From NCBI GenBank assembly GCA_018814305.1, contig JAHJAA010000006.1, positions 1 through 64,000 of the forward strand: a stretch of 64,000 nucleotides of DNA, read 5' to 3'. The position numbers and the translations under genes were made by a program. The stretch is from Pseudomonadota bacterium (GTDB lineage: Bacteria; Desulfobacterota; Desulfobulbia; Desulfobulbales; JAGXFP01). The notes under the pieces were generated by a model. The model did no database searches, was not told the origin of the DNA, and saw only the letters and a list, made by a program, of their open reading frames with translations. Positions 5,269-25,726 of this stretch are shown in pieces; position 1 is the first letter of the stretch, and each line of letters starts with the position of its first letter.

Positions 5269-6603
5269 TTAATCCATTTTCTGATTGTACCGCTCTTTGT
5301 AATAATCTTTGATTTCAGAGAGGCGTTTGGGGTCAAAGCCTTTGGTGAACCAGGCATGCCGTGGATCGCCGTCAATGTACTTCTTGATGATCTCTTCATA
5401 CACCTCTGGTTTCCCGGCCTTCTTGCAGGCCTCTTCGGCCTCGGGCAGCATCTCGGTGTAAAAGTGCTTGGCCACATCGTAGATGCCGTGCCACCAGGCG
5501 TAGTCAGGTCCGGACATGGCGGCTCCGTGGCGGGCCCGGCGTCCTTCATGGTGCCATAATTCCCAATAGATCCAGTCGATCTTGTCATCGAAGTTGGCCT
5601 TGGTCAACACTCCTTTGTCCATGAGAATGGCGCGAATTTCCTTGGCTGGAACTGCGAATTTGGTGTTGTAGAGATCGACGAAGTCATCGAGTTGCTTGTA
5701 GAATCCATCGACAAAGGTCTTGCTGTGGCAGGAGGTGCAGACATCCTGCATGTTGGCGAGTTTCTGTGGGGAATCCTTGGTCCGTGAGGACACGGCTGCG
5801 CGAAGATCCCAGCTTAACCGGGCACCCACATCATGGGTCACGGCCTGGGTGGAGGTTGCGCCGAGATGACAGGTGGAACAGGTGGGGGCATCGAAATAAT
5901 CTTCACCCGGAACCCATTTAGGACGATCCATGTTCAGTTCATCTTCATAGGCCCGGTAGAGAATCCCGTGCTTCGATTCTTCGTAGACCTCTTTCTGGGG
6001 ATGGTCCGGTCCCAGGTGGCATTTGCCGCAGACCTCGGGTTTTCTGGCCTGTTCCTTACTGAATCGGTGTCTGGTATGGCAGGCGCTACAGGTTCCCTTG
6101 GAGCCGTCCGGGTTGACCCGACCGATTCCGGTATTTGGCCAGGTTGAAGGATCAAGGCTGCCATCAGCCTTAGTCTTGACCAGTGAGCCGTGGCATTGCC
6201 GACATCCAACAGCAACTGCCGGTTCACCACCAAGCGTCTGCCCCAGTAAGCCGTCATTGGAATTTAAGATATTGCCGGCTTCAGCGTGGTGGCTCGCTTC
6301 CTGTTCGGCGCTTTCTTTGGCATGACATCGGCCGCAATCTTTTGGCGAGACAATGGTTGCCACCAGAAAACCATTGTGATCCATGGCGTCGGCATCACCT
6401 TTCTGAGCTACATGGCATTCAAAACATCCGACTCCGGCCTGCCAGTGAGGGCTTGACTCCCACTGGGTGACGATGCCGGGCATCAAGTCGGCATGACAGG
6501 CGAGACATTCTGTTGTGTCCTTTGACACTGCGGCCCAGGCGGAACCACCGACACCCAGCATCACCAGCATTCCTGCTGAAAGTTGAAACGCTAATTTTTT
6601 CAT
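5269..6603 (-). CDS. Octaheme c-type cytochrome, hydroxylamine oxidoreductase (HAO)-like family
   Basis: Signal peptide; eight CxxCH motifs (CLACH, CFECH, CGRCH, CRQCH, CSACH, CGKCH, CSTCH, CTSCH); C-terminal HHEGRRARHGAAMSGPDYAWWHGIYDV helix region typical of HAO-like proteins; AAAGGAG ribosome-binding site upstream. Confidence 0.85.
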   Translation of the reverse strand: MKKLAFQLSAGMLVMLGVGGSAWAAVSKDTTECLACHADLMPGIVTQWESSPHWQAGVGCFECHVAQKGDADAMDHNGFLVATIVSPKDCGRCHAKESAEQEASHHAEAGNILNSNDGLLGQTLGGEPAVAVGCRQCHGSLVKTKADGSLDPSTWPNTGIGRVNPDGSKGTCSACHTRHRFSKEQARKPEVCGKCHLGPDHPQKEVYEESKHGILYRAYEDELNMDRPKWVPGEDYFDAPTCSTCHLGATSTQAVTHDVGARLSWDLRAAVSSRTKDSPQKLANMQDVCTSCHSKTFVDGFYKQLDDFVDLYNTKFAVPAKEIRAILMDKGVLTKANFDDKIDWIYWELWHHEGRRARHGAAMSGPDYAWWHGIYDVAKHFYTEMLPEAEEACKKAGKPEVYEEIIKKYIDGDPRHAWFTKGFDPKRLSEIKDYYKERYNQKMD

Positions 6604-6654
6604 AACTCTTTCTCCTTTGTTAGTTTGTATTGCTACGTCCTGCTTTTTATAGAG

Positions 6655-6669
6655 GCAAAGAGTGTGCCA
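6655..6669 (-). promoter_or_regulatory. Sigma54 (-24/-12) promoter for the HAO-like gene
   Basis: Minus strand reads TGGCAC-ACTCT-TTGC; GG and GC separated by exactly 10 nt; about 50 nt upstream of the ATG at 6603. Confidence 0.85.
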
Positions 6670-6721
6670 GTTGTGTAATGGACTGTTTTTGCAGATAATT
6701 TTATTTTTTGAGTCAAGGCGC

Positions 6722-6774
6722 GTTACTTTTTGGTTACGTTACTGGTTGGCTTAGTGTTACCATAAGGTTACGTG
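6722..6774. promoter_or_regulatory. Candidate enhancer (UAS) array: two copies of GTTAC-N6-GTTACGT plus an extra GTTAC
   Basis: GTTAC at 6722, 6733, 6738, 6756, 6767; two 11-bp-spaced pairs offset by 34 bp, lying between two sigma54-like promoters. Confidence 0.6.
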
Positions 6775-6931
6775 TTGGTGAAATTCTATAATGATGGAAA
6801 TGATTCAGGCAAGTATTTTTGATTTTTTTGCCATGGCAAAAGATGCTTCGTCTGCTCTGGCTGAAAGTTTTTCGCAAGCCATCAAGGTTTTTGCCCCGAT
6901 CTGGCCTTGGGAAACTTGCCAATGCATTTTT

Positions 6932-6947
6932 TGGCTGGAATTTTGCT
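6932..6947 (+). promoter_or_regulatory. Second, weaker sigma54-like promoter facing the heme-sensor kinase operon
   Basis: TGGCTGGAATTTTGCT: GG and GC separated by 10 nt, intact TTGCT -12 element, but TG instead of AC in the -24 element. Confidence 0.5.
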
Positions 6948-6997
6948 TAACAAATGGACTGGTTCTGTGGGAACGGACTTTTTTGGAATAAAGAGAG

Positions 6998-8542
6998 GTG
7001 AAGGCCATGAGGCTGCGGATTAAAATGTCTTTGCTGGTCAGTTGTACGGTGGCCATCTCCTTTGGCGTTACCTTTGCCAAGGTCTCTTCTTTTCAGCACG
7101 GACTGGTGATCGGGCAGGCCGAACGGCAGGCCCGGATGCTGGCCCAGCAGATTATGCTGACCAGAAAGTGGGTTGCGGACCATGATGGTCTTTTTCTCAT
7201 CAAGAAACCCGGAGTCGAAAAGAATCCGTTTCTGCCGGAGGGTGAAGTTCGGTCTGATGATGGTCAGGTGTACGTTAAACGGAATCCGGCCATGGTGACC
7301 CGCGAGCTTTCCGAGTATGCCGCCCATGATGATTTCTGCCGATTCCGGGTGACCAGTCTGAAACCGGTCAATCCGGCCAACAGTCCAGATGCCTTTGAGC
7401 GGTCGAGTCTGCAGGCCTTTGAAGGAGGGCGGCAGGAGGCCCTCGAAATTAAAGACGGAGCCTCCGGCCGGGTTCTTCGGTTTATGATGCCCTTAAAGGT
7501 TGAGGAGTCATGTCTCGATTGTCACGCCATCCATGGATATCAGGTTGGAGATGTCCGAGGTGGGCTCAGTCTCGAAATTCCAATTTCCTGGGCGGATGAG
7601 ACAATTGCCGCCAACAATCGGATTTTGCTGGTGGCCGGGAGTTTGACTATTTTGATAACCGCCCTGACCATTTTTCTCTTGATTGACACCATCGTGGTTC
7701 GGCGGTTGGGATGGTTGGCTCTTGCCATGAATCGCTTTACCGGAGGGGAACTCCCGCAACAACGACTCCCGGCAGGTACTGATGAAATCGCCGGGCTGGC
7801 TGGCAATTTTCGAGATTTAGCCGGTCGTTTGGTGCGCTCCCAGGGCGAACTTGATCAGACCCGGGACCAGATGATTCAACAGGAGAAGATGGCAGCCGTG
7901 GGGCGATTGGCGGCCGGCATTGCCCATGAGATCAACAATCCCCTGGGCGGGATGCGAAACTGTGTCAAGAGTATGCGGGAGGCCCCTGAGGATAGTGGGA
8001 TGAGGAACCGGTATCTGGAGCTCATTGATACCGGTTTACAGAGAATCGGCCGGATCGTCCGGCAATTGCTGGATTTTGGCCGGAAGGATCCACTTTGTCT
8101 GCGGGAGGTTCGCATCGATGAGGTGATCCGGGAATGTTTGGGGTTGCTGGAGTATCAGTTGAAACAGATCAAGGTCAAGCTTGATCTTAGGCTCGATCAA
8201 CCGGCCCTGGTGGACGTGGAGGCGTTGAAACAGGTCTTGGTCAACCTGGCCTTGAACGGGATTCAGGCCATGCCGGATGGTGGAACCCTGACCGTCTTCA
8301 GTCGATACCGGGGCGGAGCAATTGAAATCATCTTTCGGGATACCGGGGTTGGCATTGCCCCTGAGCATCTTCACCATATTTTTGAACCGTTCTTTACCAC
8401 CAAGGAGATCGGTCAGGGTACCGGCCTTGGCCTGTCGGTTTCCTATGCCCTGGTTGGCAGAATGGGTGGGGAGATTACTCTGGACAGTGTGCCGGGGCAA
8501 GGATCTGATTTTCGAATTGTTCTTCCACCTCAGGGGGCTTGA
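6998..8542 (+). CDS. Heme-binding sensor histidine kinase (DUF3365/Tll0287-like periplasmic domain with CxxCH, HAMP, HisKA, HATPase)
   Basis: N-terminal TM, EESCLDCHAIHGYQVGDVRGGLSLEIPI, second TM, GRLAAGIAHEINNPLGGMRN H-box, FFTTKEIGQGTGLGLSVSYALV. Confidence 0.88.
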   Translation: MKAMRLRIKMSLLVSCTVAISFGVTFAKVSSFQHGLVIGQAERQARMLAQQIMLTRKWVADHDGLFLIKKPGVEKNPFLPEGEVRSDDGQVYVKRNPAMVTRELSEYAAHDDFCRFRVTSLKPVNPANSPDAFERSSLQAFEGGRQEALEIKDGASGRVLRFMMPLKVEESCLDCHAIHGYQVGDVRGGLSLEIPISWADETIAANNRILLVAGSLTILITALTIFLLIDTIVVRRLGWLALAMNRFTGGELPQQRLPAGTDEIAGLAGNFRDLAGRLVRSQGELDQTRDQMIQQEKMAAVGRLAAGIAHEINNPLGGMRNCVKSMREAPEDSGMRNRYLELIDTGLQRIGRIVRQLLDFGRKDPLCLREVRIDEVIRECLGLLEYQLKQIKVKLDLRLDQPALVDVEALKQVLVNLALNGIQAMPDGGTLTVFSRYRGGAIEIIFRDTGVGIAPEHLHHIFEPFFTTKEIGQGTGLGLSVSYALVGRMGGEITLDSVPGQGSDFRIVLPPQGA

Positions 8543-8609
8543 TCGGCCAAGATGAGGTGGTGGTCGCCCGTGGAGTGGGGCGAGGAGTGGATGATTTATA
8601 ACGAGAGGA

Positions 8610-9947
8610 TTGAATATGCCGAGAATACTGCTGGTTGAAGATGATGAAATCATGCGGGTGACCCTCTTTGACCGTCTCAAAGGGATGGGGTTTGAGGTGG
8701 ATCAGGAGGCCAACGGCCGCGATGCTTTGCTGAAGATCGAATCCCAGGAGTATCACCTGATCATCTCAGACATCAAGATGCCAGGATTGGATGGGGTCAG
8801 GTTGCTTGAGGAGGCGCGGAAGGTGGCGCCCAATGCCGATATTATTCTGATGACCGCTTACGGCAGCGTGGAGGACGCGGTGAGTTGTTTGAAAAAAGGG
8901 GCGGCTGATTATATCCTGAAGCCCTTTGATATGGATGATCTGACCATCAGGGTGAACCGGTTGCTGTCGGTTCGCAAGATGAAAACCCGATGTACTTCAC
9001 TGGAGGAAAATGTTCGTCCCGCGAGGATTATCGGCCGGAGTCCGGCCATGGCAGAGCTTGCTGAGTTAATCGACCGAGTGGCCGACTCCGATTCCACTAT
9101 CCTGATTACCGGAGAATCCGGGACCGGCAAGGAACTGGTGGCAGCAGCCCTCCATTATCAAAGTGGCCGGTCCGGGGGACCCTATGTCAAGGTCAACTGC
9201 GGTGCCATCCAGGAACACCTGATCGAATCGGAACTGTTCGGCCATGAAAAGGGGGCCTTTACCGGGGCCCTGGCTCGTAAGATTGGTCGATTTGAGATGG
9301 CCGATGGCGGCACTCTGCTTTTAGATGAGATCGGCGATCTCCCGTTACATCTTCAGGTCAAACTGCTCCGGGTTCTGCAGGAGCGCGAAATTGAACGGGT
9401 GGGGTCGGGACGACCAATTCGAATTGATGTTCGAATCCTTTGCGCTACCGCCAAGGATTTGAAGGAAGAGGTCAAGGCCGGGCGATTCCGGGAAGATCTC
9501 TTTTATCGATTACAGGTCATTCCTCTCTTTGTCCCCCCGCTCCGGGAGCGGAAAGAGGATATTCCCGATCTGGTCCGCTATTTTCTTGATGAGTTTCAAG
9601 TGATGCGCGGTATGGGGCTGGATCTTTCACCTGGTGGACTCAGCTGTTTGATGGGGTACAATTTCCCCGGGAATATTCGGGAGTTGCGGAATATCATTGA
9701 GCGGGCCTCGGTTCTGACCCGATCCTCGACCATCGATCTTTTGGAATTGCCCAGGGATTTGACCCTGGATACCCCTGGTGAGGATAGTGATTTTGGGCTG
9801 GCTGAGGCGGTCGGTCGGACTGAACAGCAGTATATTCTGAAGGCCCTGCGGAAGACGGGAGGGGTGAAAAACGAGGCGGCGGCTCTCCTGGGGATCAGTC
9901 GGAAGAATCTCTGGGAAAAGATGAAGACGTATCAGCTTGAAATTTAG
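8610..9947 (+). CDS. Sigma54-dependent NtrC-family response regulator (REC-AAA+-HTH)
   Basis: [34 protein letters not shown] Walker [16 protein letters not shown] (GAFTGA loop); C-terminal Fis-type [21 protein letters not shown]. Confidence 0.92.
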
Positions 9948-10039: not shown

Positions 10040-10771
10040 ATGGGGCATAAGCATAACAAAAAACAGCGGCATGAGAAGGTTCATGAAACCCGCCGGCCAC
10101 CGGTTAAGGGAGGCTCTGAAGTTGTTCAAGAACCGCCCCGTCTGGAAATTGTCCTAAAGGCCGATTCCGACGGCAGTCGTGGGGCGGTTGCTGCGGAGAT
10201 TAATCGGATTTCTGCGGAGATCCCCGTGGGGGTCATCCACTCCGGGGTAGGCGATATAACTCAATCCGATCTTTTTTTTGCTGAAACCGCCAGTCGCCTG
10301 GTCATCGGGTTTGGGGTTGATCTCGTTTCTGGAGTCAGGGCGGGCGTCGAACAATCAGGAGTTGAGGTGCGACTGTACCGCTTGATTTACCCCTTGGCCG
10401 AGGATTTAAAAAGGATAGCGGCAAGCCTGGTTCCCAAAGGCGAGAGCGAAACCGTTATCGGCCAGGCCAAGGTGATTGCCCTCTTTAAGAGCTGTCGACA
10501 TGGTTCGATCCTTGGTTGTGAGTTGGTGGCAGGGCGCCTGGCCCTGGGGGACCACTTTCGGGTAATCAGCGGCATGGGCCCGATCTACTCCGGGCGGATA
10601 AAATCACTTCAAATTGGGGACCGTGCGGTGGACCAGGCCGGGGTTGGTCGGCAGGTCGGGCTCAAGATCGAAGACTTCAATCGCGGGGCCATCGGCGATC
10701 TGGTGGAAAGCTATAGGCCAATCCAGCCACCTATTCCCTGGCGACCGGATCCCGGCGTTTGCCAATTCTAA
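10040..10771 (+). CDS. Standalone IF-2 C-terminal-domain paralogue lacking the GTPase domain
   Basis: LEIVLKADSDGSRGAVAAEINRIS...VGVIHSGVGDITQSDLFFAETASRLVIGFGVDL...VRLYRLIYPLAEDLKRI...IGQAKVIALFKSCRHGSILGCELVAGRLALGDHFRVI...VGLKIEDFNRGAIGDLVESY resembles InfB domains III-IV/C2; no G1-G4 motifs. Confidence 0.8.
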   Translation: MGHKHNKKQRHEKVHETRRPPVKGGSEVVQEPPRLEIVLKADSDGSRGAVAAEINRISAEIPVGVIHSGVGDITQSDLFFAETASRLVIGFGVDLVSGVRAGVEQSGVEVRLYRLIYPLAEDLKRIAASLVPKGESETVIGQAKVIALFKSCRHGSILGCELVAGRLALGDHFRVISGMGPIYSGRIKSLQIGDRAVDQAGVGRQVGLKIEDFNRGAIGDLVESYRPIQPPIPWRPDPGVCQF

Positions 10772-10774
10772 AAA

Positions 10775-11698
10775 TTACTTCAACAGATCCGTACTCAGGT
10801 AGCGTTCACCCGTATCGGGGAGGACGACCACCAGGGTTTTGCCCCGGTTTTCCTCCCGGTTGGCAACCTGAAGGGCCGCCCAGGCGGCTGCCCCGGAGGA
10901 GATGCCACAGAGGATCCCCTCCTTGGCGGCCAGGAGTTTGGCCGTGCCGATGGCGTCTTCATTGGTGACCTGGACGATTTCGTCAATGATGCCGGTGTTT
11001 AAGACCTTGGGGATGAAGCCTGCCCCGATGCCCTGGATCTTGTGGGGGCCGGGGGCACCGCCGGAGAGAACCGGAGACGCCGTTGGTTCGACCGCCACGG
11101 CATAAAATGATGGTTTGCGGGCCTTGATCACTTCGGAGACTCCGGTGATGGTGCCGCCGGTACCGACCCCGGCCACTAATATATCAACCCGGCCTTCGGT
11201 ATCATTCCAGATTTCCAAAGCGGTGGTGGTGCGATGGATCTCGGGGTTGGCAGGGTTTTCGAACTGGTTGGGCATGAAGGCATTGGCGGTGTTTGCGGTG
11301 AGTTCTGTGGCCTTGGCAATGGCCCCCTTCATTCCCTCCGGACCTGGGGTGAGCACCAGTTCCGCTCCAAGATGCTTTAAGAGCTGGCGTCGTTCCATGC
11401 TCATGGTTTCCGGCATGGTGAGGATCAGCCGATACCCCTTGGCGGCACAGATCATGGCCAGGGCAATGCCAGTATTGCCGCTGGTGGGCTCGATGATCAC
11501 CGTGTCGTGGTTGACCTGTCCGGACTGCTCGGCGGCGTCGATCATGGCCTTGCCGATCCGGTCCTTGACGCTGAACAGGGGATTTCGGGATTCCAGTTTG
11601 GCCAGGATGGTGACCCCTGAATCCGGGGCCAGATGGTTAAGCCGGATCAGCGGGGTATTGCCGATGGCCTGGGAAATGTCGGAATAGATTCCACTCAT
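10775..11698 (-). CDS. cysK: Cysteine synthase A (O-acetylserine sulfhydrylase)
   Basis: [72 protein letters not shown]. Confidence 0.95.
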
Positions 11699-12678
11699 GT
11701 TGTTCTCCTTTTGTCGTTTTTTTTGCCATTGCCCGAGTAAACCAGTTCCGGCTTTTTCAGGATAACTTTGGTGTCCGGTGGGACGCTTTCGGTGATCCAG
11801 ATATTACCGCCGATCACGCTGCGGGTGCCGATTACGGTTTCGCCGCCAAGGATGGTTGAGTTTGCATAGACGATGACGTCATCCTCGATGGTGGGATGGC
11901 GTTTGACGTTGCGAAAACGTTTTCCGGCATCGGTCGGCAGGGAGAGGGCGCCCAGGGTGACGCCCTGGTAGAGTCGGACCCGGTTGCCGATGATGGTGGT
12001 CTCTCCGATGACCACCCCAGTGCCGTGGTCGATGAAAAAATGCGAGCCGATGGCGGCGCCGGGATGGATATCGATCCCAGTGAGACTATGGGCATATTCG
12101 GTCATGATTCGGGGCAGAACCGGGACCTGCATTCGGTGCAGTTCATGGGCCAGGCGATAGACACTGATGGCCAAAAGACCGGGATAGCTGAAGATCACCT
12201 CGTCGGCCCCCTTGGCGGCCGGATCACCATCAAGGGCGGCCTGGATGTCGTTGGCCAGTTGCTCGCTGATTTCGGGTAGTCGTTCGATGAAGCGAATTGC
12301 TTTTTCCGCACCTTGGACCTTGCAACGGGTACAAGTCTGGCGGGCCTGGAAGCATTCGTGCTGGATGGCCAGGACGATCTGGGCGGAGAGCTTTTCAAAG
12401 AGCTCGGTGGTCTCTTGACCCAGGCAGTATTCCAGGTTGGCCGGATTGATCGAGGTCGGTGAGAAATAGCCGGGGAAGAGGATGCGCCTCGCCTGCTGGA
12501 TGATCTCAACTACCTTGGCATGGGTGGGAATGGGAATTGAGCCCAGGTGGTCGAAACAGCCATGCCGGTTGCAGGAAGCGGCCAGCTTTTTAACCACCGG
12601 CGGGATATCATCGTAGAAATGGTTAGTGCTTTCCGCATCATCAATGCATTCTTTATTATCGATATCCTTGATAAACAT
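11695..12678 (-). CDS. cysE: Serine O-acetyltransferase (hexapeptide-repeat)
   Basis: [42 protein letters not shown]; overlaps the cysK start. Confidence 0.9.
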
Positions 12679-12799
12679 CTTTGTCTCCTTATAGCGATAA
12701 AACCTGGTGGGTCATTGGGGTTGAGGGGGACTGTTGTTCAGCCAGGAAGAAGATTTTACTCCGTTACCCTTTAAAATCTGTACTATAGCCATTTTTTAC

Positions 12800-13402
12800 T
12801 CAATCGGTCCTGCTGACCAGAAAAATTCCATAGGTGGCCCGCAGATTGGGCAGGAAAGAAATAATTTTCCCTTGAAGATCATGGCTGCTGGTGTCGATGG
12901 CCACCTCTTTTTCCAGGCGGCAGCCGATCTTTCTGATAAATCGGCGGAAATCTTTAATGGTAATAACCCTGATATTGGGGGTGTTATACCAGTCAAAGGG
13001 GAGTTGCGGGTTTTTCGGGGCATAGCCCTTGAGCAGGAGCTGTATCCGGATGGACCAGTGGCTGAAGTTGGGGAACGAGACAATCACCCGACCGCCGATC
13101 CGGAGCAGTTCATTCAGCAACCAGTCGGGACGATAAACCTGTTGCAGGGTCTGGCTGAGGATCACATAGTCGAACCAGTTATCCTGGTAGTCAAGGATTT
13201 CCTCGTTAATGTCACCCTGCAGGACCTGGAGTCCGCGTTCGATGCAGAAGGCGGCCAGTTCCTCGGAATTTTCGATACCGGTACCGGAAACCTGTTTTTC
13301 TTCCTTGAGAAAGTTGAGGAGATCACCGTGGCCGCATCCCAGGTCGAGGACCCTGCTGCCTGGTTCGATCCAAGAGGCAATAATTTGCAGATCATAACGC
13401 AT
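12800..13402 (-). CDS. metW: Methionine biosynthesis protein MetW (SAM-methyltransferase fold)
   Basis: [44 protein letters not shown]...; start at 13402 overlaps the 3' end of metX; the ORF-track extension to 13513 is antisense/overlap read-through. Confidence 0.9.
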
Positions 13403-14576
13403 GGCGGCCCGACCTCTCCCGGTAAATCCGTTCCAGGAATTTCCCCACCAGACTGCTGAGTCGGGGATTGGGGAGTAAAAAGGCATCGTGCCCACAGTCC
13501 GCTTTGATTTCACAGAAGCTGACGTCGAGTCCGTTTTTTTTCATGGCCTTGACCAGGGCTTTTGATTGATACGTGGGGTAGAGCCAGTCCGAGGTGAAGG
13601 AAACCACCAGAAATCTGGCCGTTGCACTGGCAAGGGCCAGGACGTCTGAGTCATCGCCGAATTTACTGCCCAAGTCGAAATAATCTCCTGCCTTGCTGAT
13701 ATAGAGGAAGGAGTTGGCATCGAAACGACGGACAAACTTATTGCCCTGGTATCGGAGATAACTCTCGATCTGGAAGTCGCCGTCGAAGTTGAAGGACAGG
13801 TCCTTTTTGTTCTGGAGTCTTCTCCCGAATTTGATGCGCATGGCCTCGTCCGACAGGTAGGTTACGTGCCCCACCATGCGGGCCACTGCCAGCCCGGTAT
13901 CGGGGAATTTCCCCTGATAGTAATGGCCACCGGCCCAGTTTGGGTCGGCCATAATGGCCTGGCGACCGATCTCGTTAAAGGCGATGGCCAAGGCTGAGTG
14001 ACGGGTGGTGGTGGCCAGGGGGATGGCCGAGGCGACCATCTCAGGGTAGCGGACCGACCACTCCAGAACCTGCATGCCGCCAATGGAACCGCCGATTACC
14101 GAGAGGAGTTGGTTGATGCCCAGATGATCCAGCAGGAGTTTCTGGGCCTTGACCATGTCGCCGATGGTAATCAACGGGAAGTCAAGGCCGAACTGCCTGC
14201 CGGTGGCGGGATTGATGGATGATGGGCCGGTTGAACCCATACATCCGCCCAGCACATTGGAGCAGATCACAAAGTACTGATCGGTATCGATGGCCTTACC
14301 AGGGCCGATCATAATCTCCCACCAGCCGGGTTTGGAATCTTCCTGGGTGTAGTATCCGGCCATATGGGAATCACCGGACAGGGCATGGGTGATCAGGATG
14401 GCATTGGAGCGATCCGAATTTAGTTGTCCCAAAGTTTCGTAGGCCAGGGTTATCGGCCCCAGGCGGGTTCCGCTGTCCAGGACGATTTCATTGGGAGAAT
14501 CGGCCAGAGTAACGAATTTTTTCTCTACAAGACCGACGGAGTTGCCGGAGGTGTCATGCTTGGTGTATTCGCTCAT
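13392..14576 (-). CDS. metX: Homoserine O-acetyltransferase
   Basis: [66 protein letters not shown]. Confidence 0.93.
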
Positions 14577-14587
14577 TATAATCCATC

Positions 14588-15838
14588 TCAAATCCGGTCA
14601 AGGGACTGGGCCAGATCCTGGCAGATATCTTCTACTGCCTCTATTCCTACCGATAGTCTAATCAGATCCGGAGTGATATCCAGAGATTGTTTGGTCGGTT
14701 CATCGAATGAAAGATATTGCGATGAGGAGGGGTGGATAATCAAGGTCTTGCAGTCTCCGAGGTTGGCCAGGTGATAGATCATTTTAAGTCCGTTGATGAA
14801 TGAAAAGCATTGGGCTTGGTCCCGGAGGCCGAAGGAGAGGATCCCGCCGAATCCCATCCCGTTGAACTGAGCCTTGGCGGTGAGATGGCTGGGGCTGTCG
14901 AGTCGGCCGGGATATTTTATCCAGGTCACCTCGGGACGGGCGGCGAGAAAATCTACTACCCGAGCGCAATTCTCCAGGTGCCGTTCCATCCTGATCGCCA
15001 GGGTGTCGAGACCGATCATGGTCAGATAGGAGTGGAGTGGAGCCTGGGTGGTCCCGAAGTTGATATGGTGTTCTCGCCAGACCTTGTCGAGAAAGGCCAA
15101 GGGGCCCTTCCGGTCGATAAATGGCTTCATATCTGGGAAACGGCCCTGTTGCCAGTCGAAGTTGCCGCCGTCGATCACCACTCCACCTGGGGCATCCCCA
15201 TGGCCACTGAGGTACTTGGTCGTTGAGTGGATGACCACATCGGCCCCCAATTCCAAAGGGCGGCAGAGATATGGGGTAGCCAGGGTGTTGTCCACCAGGA
15301 GAGGCAGCCCATGGCGATGGGCGATTCGGGCAGTTTCAGCGAGGTTTGGCACATCCATTTTGGGATTGCCGATGGTTTCCAGGTAGACGAAACGGGTCTT
15401 GTCGGTGATGGCTGCCTCCAGGGCGGCAAGATCGGTGGACTCAACCAGTCGGGCAGTGATTCCGTATTTTTTGAAGATGTTGTTGAAGAGAATATAGGTG
15501 GACATGAACAGGGAGTTGCCACTGACAAATTCATCCCCGGTTCGCAAGAGCGCCATGCAGGCATTGGTGATTGCCGCCATTCCTGAGGCCATGACCACAG
15601 CCCCTTTGCCGCTTTCAAGCAGAGCGAGTTTTTCTTCAAGGACCCGGTTGGTGGGGTTGGTCAGTCGGAGATAGATATGATCGGAGGTCTTGCCGCCAAA
15701 GGTGGCGCTCAGATTTTCGGCGGTTTCGTGAAGGTGTGAGGCGGATTGGCAAATTGGAGGCAGGGTCGCCCCTTGCCATTCTGAAGGGTGGAGGCCTTCA
15801 TGGATGACTCTGGTTCGGAAATCTTTTTTGTCAGACAT
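14588..15838 (-). CDS. metY: O-acetylhomoserine sulfhydrylase / homocysteine synthase (PLP Cys/Met metabolism enzyme)
   Basis: THAL-type PLP fold: [61 protein letters not shown]. Confidence 0.88.
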
Positions 15839-25650: not shown

Positions 25651-25726
25651 TGGAGGCGACGAGCGGAGTCGAACCGCTGAATAAAGGTTTTGCAGACCTC
25701 TGCCTTAGCCACTTGGCTACGTCGCC
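25651..25726 (-). tRNA. tRNA-Cys (GCA), CCA encoded
   Basis: Minus strand GGCGACGTAGCCAAGTGGCTAAGGCAGAGGTCTGCAAAACCTTTATTCAGCGGTTCGACTCCGCTCGTCGCCTCCA folds as a cloverleaf, anticodon GCA. Confidence 0.95.

Follow-up and report, generated by a model that had tools for sequence, protein, structure and literature searches.

The gene at positions 10040–10771 of the window (the whole 64,000-nucleotide stretch analysed, taken from contig JAHJAA010000006.1 of a Desulfobulbales genome) encodes a stand-alone version of the C1 and C2 domains of translation initiation factor IF-2, and the existence of a family of such proteins is close to certain. Judged by its sequences, this family is derived from IF-2, is devoid of the GTPase that defines the factor, and carries an apparently rewritten reader domain. 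Every bacterium has IF-2, as a rule in one copy, and the factor reads formyl-methionine with its C2 domain. A conserved paralogue in which C1-C2 remain, the GTPase is gone and the reader is rewritten would amount to a natural experiment on how fMet recognition is encoded, and it would be a candidate new ribosome regulator. No published description of a stand-alone or paralogous IF-2 was found in the open-licence literature.

Gene, domains and the separate infB

The open reading frame is complete, with exact boundaries and without an internal stop or frameshift. ATG 10040 is the only in-frame start codon upstream of the C1 domain, and the protein beginning it gives (MGHK or MGSRK) is seen again in orthologues. 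The domains and tails are listed in Table 1.

Table 1. Features of the stand-alone IF-2 paralogue in the window.
Feature	Position	Strand	Basis or remark
CDS, stand-alone IF-2 C1-C2 paralogue	10040–10771	+	ATG start; 243 aa plus stop; profile matches
N-terminal basic/His-rich tail, residues 1–32, MGHKHNKKQRHEKVHETRR...	10040–10135	+	Predicted disordered (AlphaFold)
C1 domain, residues 35–124	10142–10411	+	PF11987, AlphaFold model, residue mapping (V70/G71 and Y117 kept)
C2 beta-barrel, residues 134–228	10439–10723	+	AlphaFold model, residue mapping; fMet/A76-contacting residues replaced
C-terminal tail, residues 229–243, W-x-P motif (here IPWRPDPGVCQF)	10724–10768	+	Predicted ordered; short strand at 239–242, at the end

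The original prediction was of a GTPase-less paralogue with a basic N-terminal tail and similarity to the C-terminal half of IF-2, and each part of this description has held. Pfam PF11987 (IF-2 C1) matches residues 30–124 (E 2.6e-21; 76 bits, cut-off 27), and TIGR00487 (IF-2) matches residues 33–226 (E 2.3e-38) at model positions 384–578 of 587, that is, over the C-terminal part only. The TIGR00487 score of 132 bits stays under the cut-off of 424 because the G domain and the N-terminal parts are missing. No match to a G domain with its G1–G5 motifs was found in the protein using Pfam and NCBIfam. Membership of a different family was one outcome that could have overturned the prediction; the HMM searches instead place the protein in IF-2 C1-C2. 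A phmmer search against the PDB returned IF-2 structures, e.g. 5lmv (E 1.5e-25 over residues 4–231), the best matches being the factors of Thermus, E. coli, Pseudomonas and mitochondria. The C2 barrel is supported by the reach of TIGR00487 to residue 226, by a match to 1d1n, and by AlphaFold and Foldseek.

The AlphaFold model (mean pLDDT 91) has a confident C1-C2 fold, with a disordered N-terminal tail (pLDDT 51–66 for residues 1–30) and an ordered C-terminal one; at a pTM of 0.70, the mutual placing of C1 and C2 is less sure than either fold. A comparison with InfB domains had been proposed, and IF-2 C1-C2 ranks first when Foldseek is queried with this model, the top match being mammalian mitochondrial IF-2 (9hfo_7). 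The protein should not carry the annotation “translation initiation factor IF-2”.

The genome of the window (4.15 Mb, 97% complete) also holds a separate full-length infB, as the paralogue reading calls for: a 936-aa open frame on another contig (G000:C81), adjoining a gene that reads as rbfA. With a complete infB elsewhere, the candidate explanation that the gene is one part of a split infB, or the sole IF-2 of its genome, was rejected. A full-length IF-2 stands beside the stand-alone gene in the carriers checked, bar two drafts in which it was undetected, one 63% complete (G085) and the other searched at a strict threshold (G127). The fmt gene is present in this genome and in nearly all genomes tested, so fMet initiation should be normal in carriers. 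Loss of fmt was also considered as an explanation and rejected, the gene being near-universal in carriers and non-carriers.

Distribution, origin and neighbourhood

The gene is patchily scattered, mainly in uncultivated bacteria of two phyla, Desulfobacterota and Nitrospirota. Orthologues are about 240–250 aa long and about 40–50% identical (44–50% in the same order, where 96 related genomes were searched), and they are clearly apart from full-length IF-2 (about 28–33% identical over the shared part). Carriers make up 21 of the 258 genomes of the order (about 8%) and fall into 10 of its 69 genera. Other Desulfobacterota families also have the gene, one carrier being a single-contig genome (G452). 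In an alignment-based scan of the GTDB species genomes 43 loci came up, three of them ordinary full-length IF-2s of other bacteria; nearly all are labelled Desulfobulbaceae, other former Deltaproteobacteria or Nitrospirota, and one carrier is an isolate, Desulfoferrobacter suflitae DRH4. Since two short motifs served as the query, absence outside these groups is not proven; an earlier contig scan seeded by a single protein had given no matches, whereas the alignment-based scan did find loci. A sequence titled Flavobacteriaceae (CP070731.1) encodes a stand-alone protein with about 70% identity to those of Desulfobulbaceae; this sequence contains runs of N, and its organism label may be wrong.

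The family has a single origin. When 41 stand-alone proteins are placed in one tree with 36 IF-2 C-termini, the two groups split with an SH-aLRT of 100, and the Nitrospirota members cluster (support 97) inside the stand-alone side. It is also under purifying selection, with dN/dS of 0.14–0.23 for those orthologue pairs whose dS could be measured, while the window copy paired with L056 gives 0.26; pseudogenisation, which would have spoken against the original prediction, was not seen. The idea of a leftover or pseudogene from an infB duplication, suggested by the partial copy and its patchy occurrence, is accordingly rejected for the family as very improbable, given that dozens of genomes from two phyla hold intact, conserved frames of much the same length, which form one clade with these dN/dS values and have conserved motifs and tails of their own. 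The window copy alone may be decaying, although its frame has neither a stop nor a frameshift.

PF11987 is matched by 40 of 40 family members. Hallmarks of the family are a K/H-rich start (MGHK, MGSRK, MSHK) opening an N-terminal tail rich in K, S and H, followed by VIALFKSSRKGIILGC, MGPxY, SLHIEK, GQQVGLKI and a C-terminal W-x-P-x-G tail. The window copy is divergent (Q75, Q191, G193, R204) and has lost some family residues. Two further members (L104, L105) are the most divergent, do not have the W-x-P tail, and lie near a methyltransferase and a CO-dehydrogenase-like gene. Full-length chlamydial IF-2s of Anoxychlamydiales (L089, L090) contain AKVIALFKSSHLGVIAGC while retaining the ECG motif, which means that VIALFKSS by itself does not identify a protein as a member of the stand-alone family. 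An apparent domain fusion in one locus (L103, 510-aa open frame) was rejected, since the frame simply stays open ahead of a normal start codon.

No partner gene common to the lineages was found in the neighbourhoods compared. In the window the neighbours are HK/RR genes and cysK; Syntrophobacteraceae-like genomes have nadC-azlCD-std-proC there, and Nitrospirota have sppA/rpsA upstream. Before the gene, the window (5269–9947) encodes a multihaem c-type cytochrome with many CxxCH motifs, a sensor kinase with a CxxCH of its own, and an NtrC-type response regulator that ends 93 bases ahead of the gene. Downstream, on the minus strand (10775–15838), cysK, cysE, metW, metX and an O-acetylhomoserine sulfhydrylase were read by eye as a sulfur amino acid cluster. 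There is no RNA element or odd tRNA near the gene, the sole tRNA being a tRNA-Cys at 25651–25726.

One genome among those checked has selB about 110 bases upstream on the same strand (L060/L040, G077:C96). A link to selB was rejected: nearly all genomes have selB, whether they carry the stand-alone gene or not, and the remaining order-level carriers checked have the two genes on different contigs. The genome of the window has a second selB-like match (G000:C19:2750-3856, a 699-aa frame) besides a full selB on C10. Of 16 carriers, 6 have an HPF match, as do 5 of 24 non-carriers, with no clear pattern of complementarity. A mobile or viral origin was likewise rejected: no relatives were found in viral contigs at the patterns used, and matches in a plasmid collection are about 30% identical over IF-2 C-termini and are infB wherever annotated.

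Residues of C1 and of the C2 pocket

In compact IF-2 of P. aeruginosa on the 70S ribosome, V676 and G677 stack on the SRL and Y723 on A1067 of the uL11 stalk, and helix H10 faces the G domain; in the extended form Y723 also approaches the catalytic His (PMC9192638). With this numbering (G677, Y723) checked against the chain sequence, the equivalents in the window protein are V70, G71 and Y117, all three of which the family keeps (G71 in 41 of 41 members, Y117 in 38 of 41). The C1 positions that are conserved in both groups yet differ between them are concentrated on helix H10, including its end, where K replaces E730, T replaces A738, G replaces S739 and R replaces A741. This pattern is what would be expected if ribosome binding persists without a G domain, and we infer as much from the conservation, with the qualification that some kept residues, at well-conserved positions of the fold, may be conserved for folding.

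For C2, the family was aligned with IF-2 and its columns were numbered by E. coli IF-2, in which F804 and F848 flank fMet and R846 envelops A76 (PMC13345285, preprint). The equivalent of F848 in P. aeruginosa, F799, touches fMet (PMC9192638), and the mutation R847G strongly reduces fMet-tRNA binding (PMC8709274). The family retains F804 and replaces R846 by H/Q, R847 by I (36 of 41) and F848 by E/G/D, and the IF-2-invariant E860 and C861 have become Q/K and V/A. In the window copy, Q191, I192, G193, Q205 and V206 stand at R846, R847, F848, E860 and C861. The fMet-contacting residues being substituted, the fMet-tRNA modulator, put forward as an earlier guess at function along with a ribosome modulator, a stress factor and an IF-2 antagonist, now seems less likely.

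Within the family no other columns of C2 are as conserved as those of the pocket (entropy 0.42 vs 1.46 for the rest; permutation p 0.00025), which suggests a pocket that is retuned and not decayed, in a test that cannot tell ligand binding from barrel-core constraint. The new pocket residues appear to resemble domain IV of eIF5B. On a profile of that domain built from 4 sequences, 37 of 41 family members reach at least 8.4 bits and every IF-2 stays at or below 7.3 bits, all of them weak scores, with the window copy at 4.8 bits only. The Pfam domain-4 model follows the same trend (best E 1.9e-7 for the family vs 0.052 for IF-2).

Proposed role and relation to known factors

Our best reading, held tentatively and at somewhat less than even confidence, is of a GTP-independent factor of the 50S factor-binding site whose C2 would not require fMet and which would modulate or silence initiation. 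The protein would bind that site (SRL, uL11 stalk, accommodation corridor) without GTP, and its retuned pocket would sit by the tRNA 3' end, with no need for formyl-methionylation, or by rRNA. It would compete with or modulate IF-2 and other factors, with ribosomes held in a non-initiating or resting state as one example of the outcome. As there is no G domain, GTP hydrolysis could not power release, and occupancy would therefore depend on the abundance of the protein or on a partner. Counting against this reading are the domains missing here, from which IF-2 gains much of its ribosome affinity, the unlinked, lineage-variable neighbourhoods and the divergence of the window copy. The broader claim, that these proteins form an undescribed class of IF-2 C1-C2 mimics at the 50S factor-binding site, with a pocket reading a non-formylated tRNA end, which regulate or silence ribosomes in mostly uncultivated Desulfobacterota and Nitrospirota, is possible but doubtful.

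The same pocket could serve away from the ribosome, a C2 of eIF5B/EF-Tu type binding unformylated Met-tRNA or other acceptor ends (as chaperone, buffer or sensor) on a C1 scaffold. Such a role would fit pocket columns that are conserved yet unlike IF-2, the apparent likeness of VIALF and SLHIEK...GQQVGLKI to VAVF and SIEINH...GQ.V..KI of eIF5B, and the basic L1 loop FKSSRKG beside the site where Lys994 of eIF5B may contact the acceptor stem (PMC4236685). We consider it unlikely, since eIF5B binds Met-tRNA weakly off the ribosome (PMC4236685) and the conservation of ribosome-facing residues in C1 would serve no purpose. A pure antagonist or decoy, which would take the C1-C2 site or pair with IF-2 and lower initiation with no C2 ligand, is to us an equally improbable account: the domains are those of the IF-2 tRNA-end anchor, but have lost the fMet code and stand without a G domain, and full IF-2 is found alongside in all carriers checked except the two drafts, but isolated C1-C2 would be expected to bind weakly and the altered pocket columns would be left unexplained as the most conserved of C2.

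Exaptation for a non-translational role, in regulation or nucleic acid binding, has a poor chance. The variable neighbourhoods favour it, as do lone IF-2 C2-related barrels in Pyrococcus (7anu; 1xe1 only at E 0.19), against which both domains and the IF-2 arrangement are kept, with residues that map to ribosome contacts. The chance is slimmer still for a GTPase-less ribosome assembly factor acting on maturing subunits. Trypanosoma mitochondrial IF-2, bound in small-subunit assembly intermediates (7pua and 7pub, among the Foldseek matches), and the basic tail speak for such a factor, but that IF-2 is full-length, and the only connection to assembly genes is the lineage-specific rpsA nearby.

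Among known systems, bacterial IF-2 (infB; TIGR00487, PF11987) shares C1 and C2 in the same order and fold, and 24 of 37 near-invariant IF-2 positions are kept by most family members. Unlike it, the stand-alone protein has no N, G or G3 domains and is encoded by a separate gene beside infB, while the family replaces R832 along with R847, F848, E860 and C861, has an altered H10 face, and adds the basic tail and the W-x-P C-terminal tail. Domains III-IV of eIF5B/aIF5B seem the closer likeness for the pocket motifs VIALF, SLHIEK and GQQVGLKI, which look nearer to domain IV of eIF5B than to bacterial IF-2; yet the window protein scores 34–44 bits on archaeal models against 132 bits on the bacterial one, and the GTPase of eIF5B/aIF5B is absent from it. 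Mammalian mitochondrial IF-2 ends in SWDPGF, similar to the W-x-P-x-G tail of the family and perhaps convergent, but is a full-length GTPase with an fMet-tRNA function. Pyrococcus Pbp11 (7anu), a lone barrel that matches the family profile (E 1.1e-4), differs in being an archaeal single barrel without C1.
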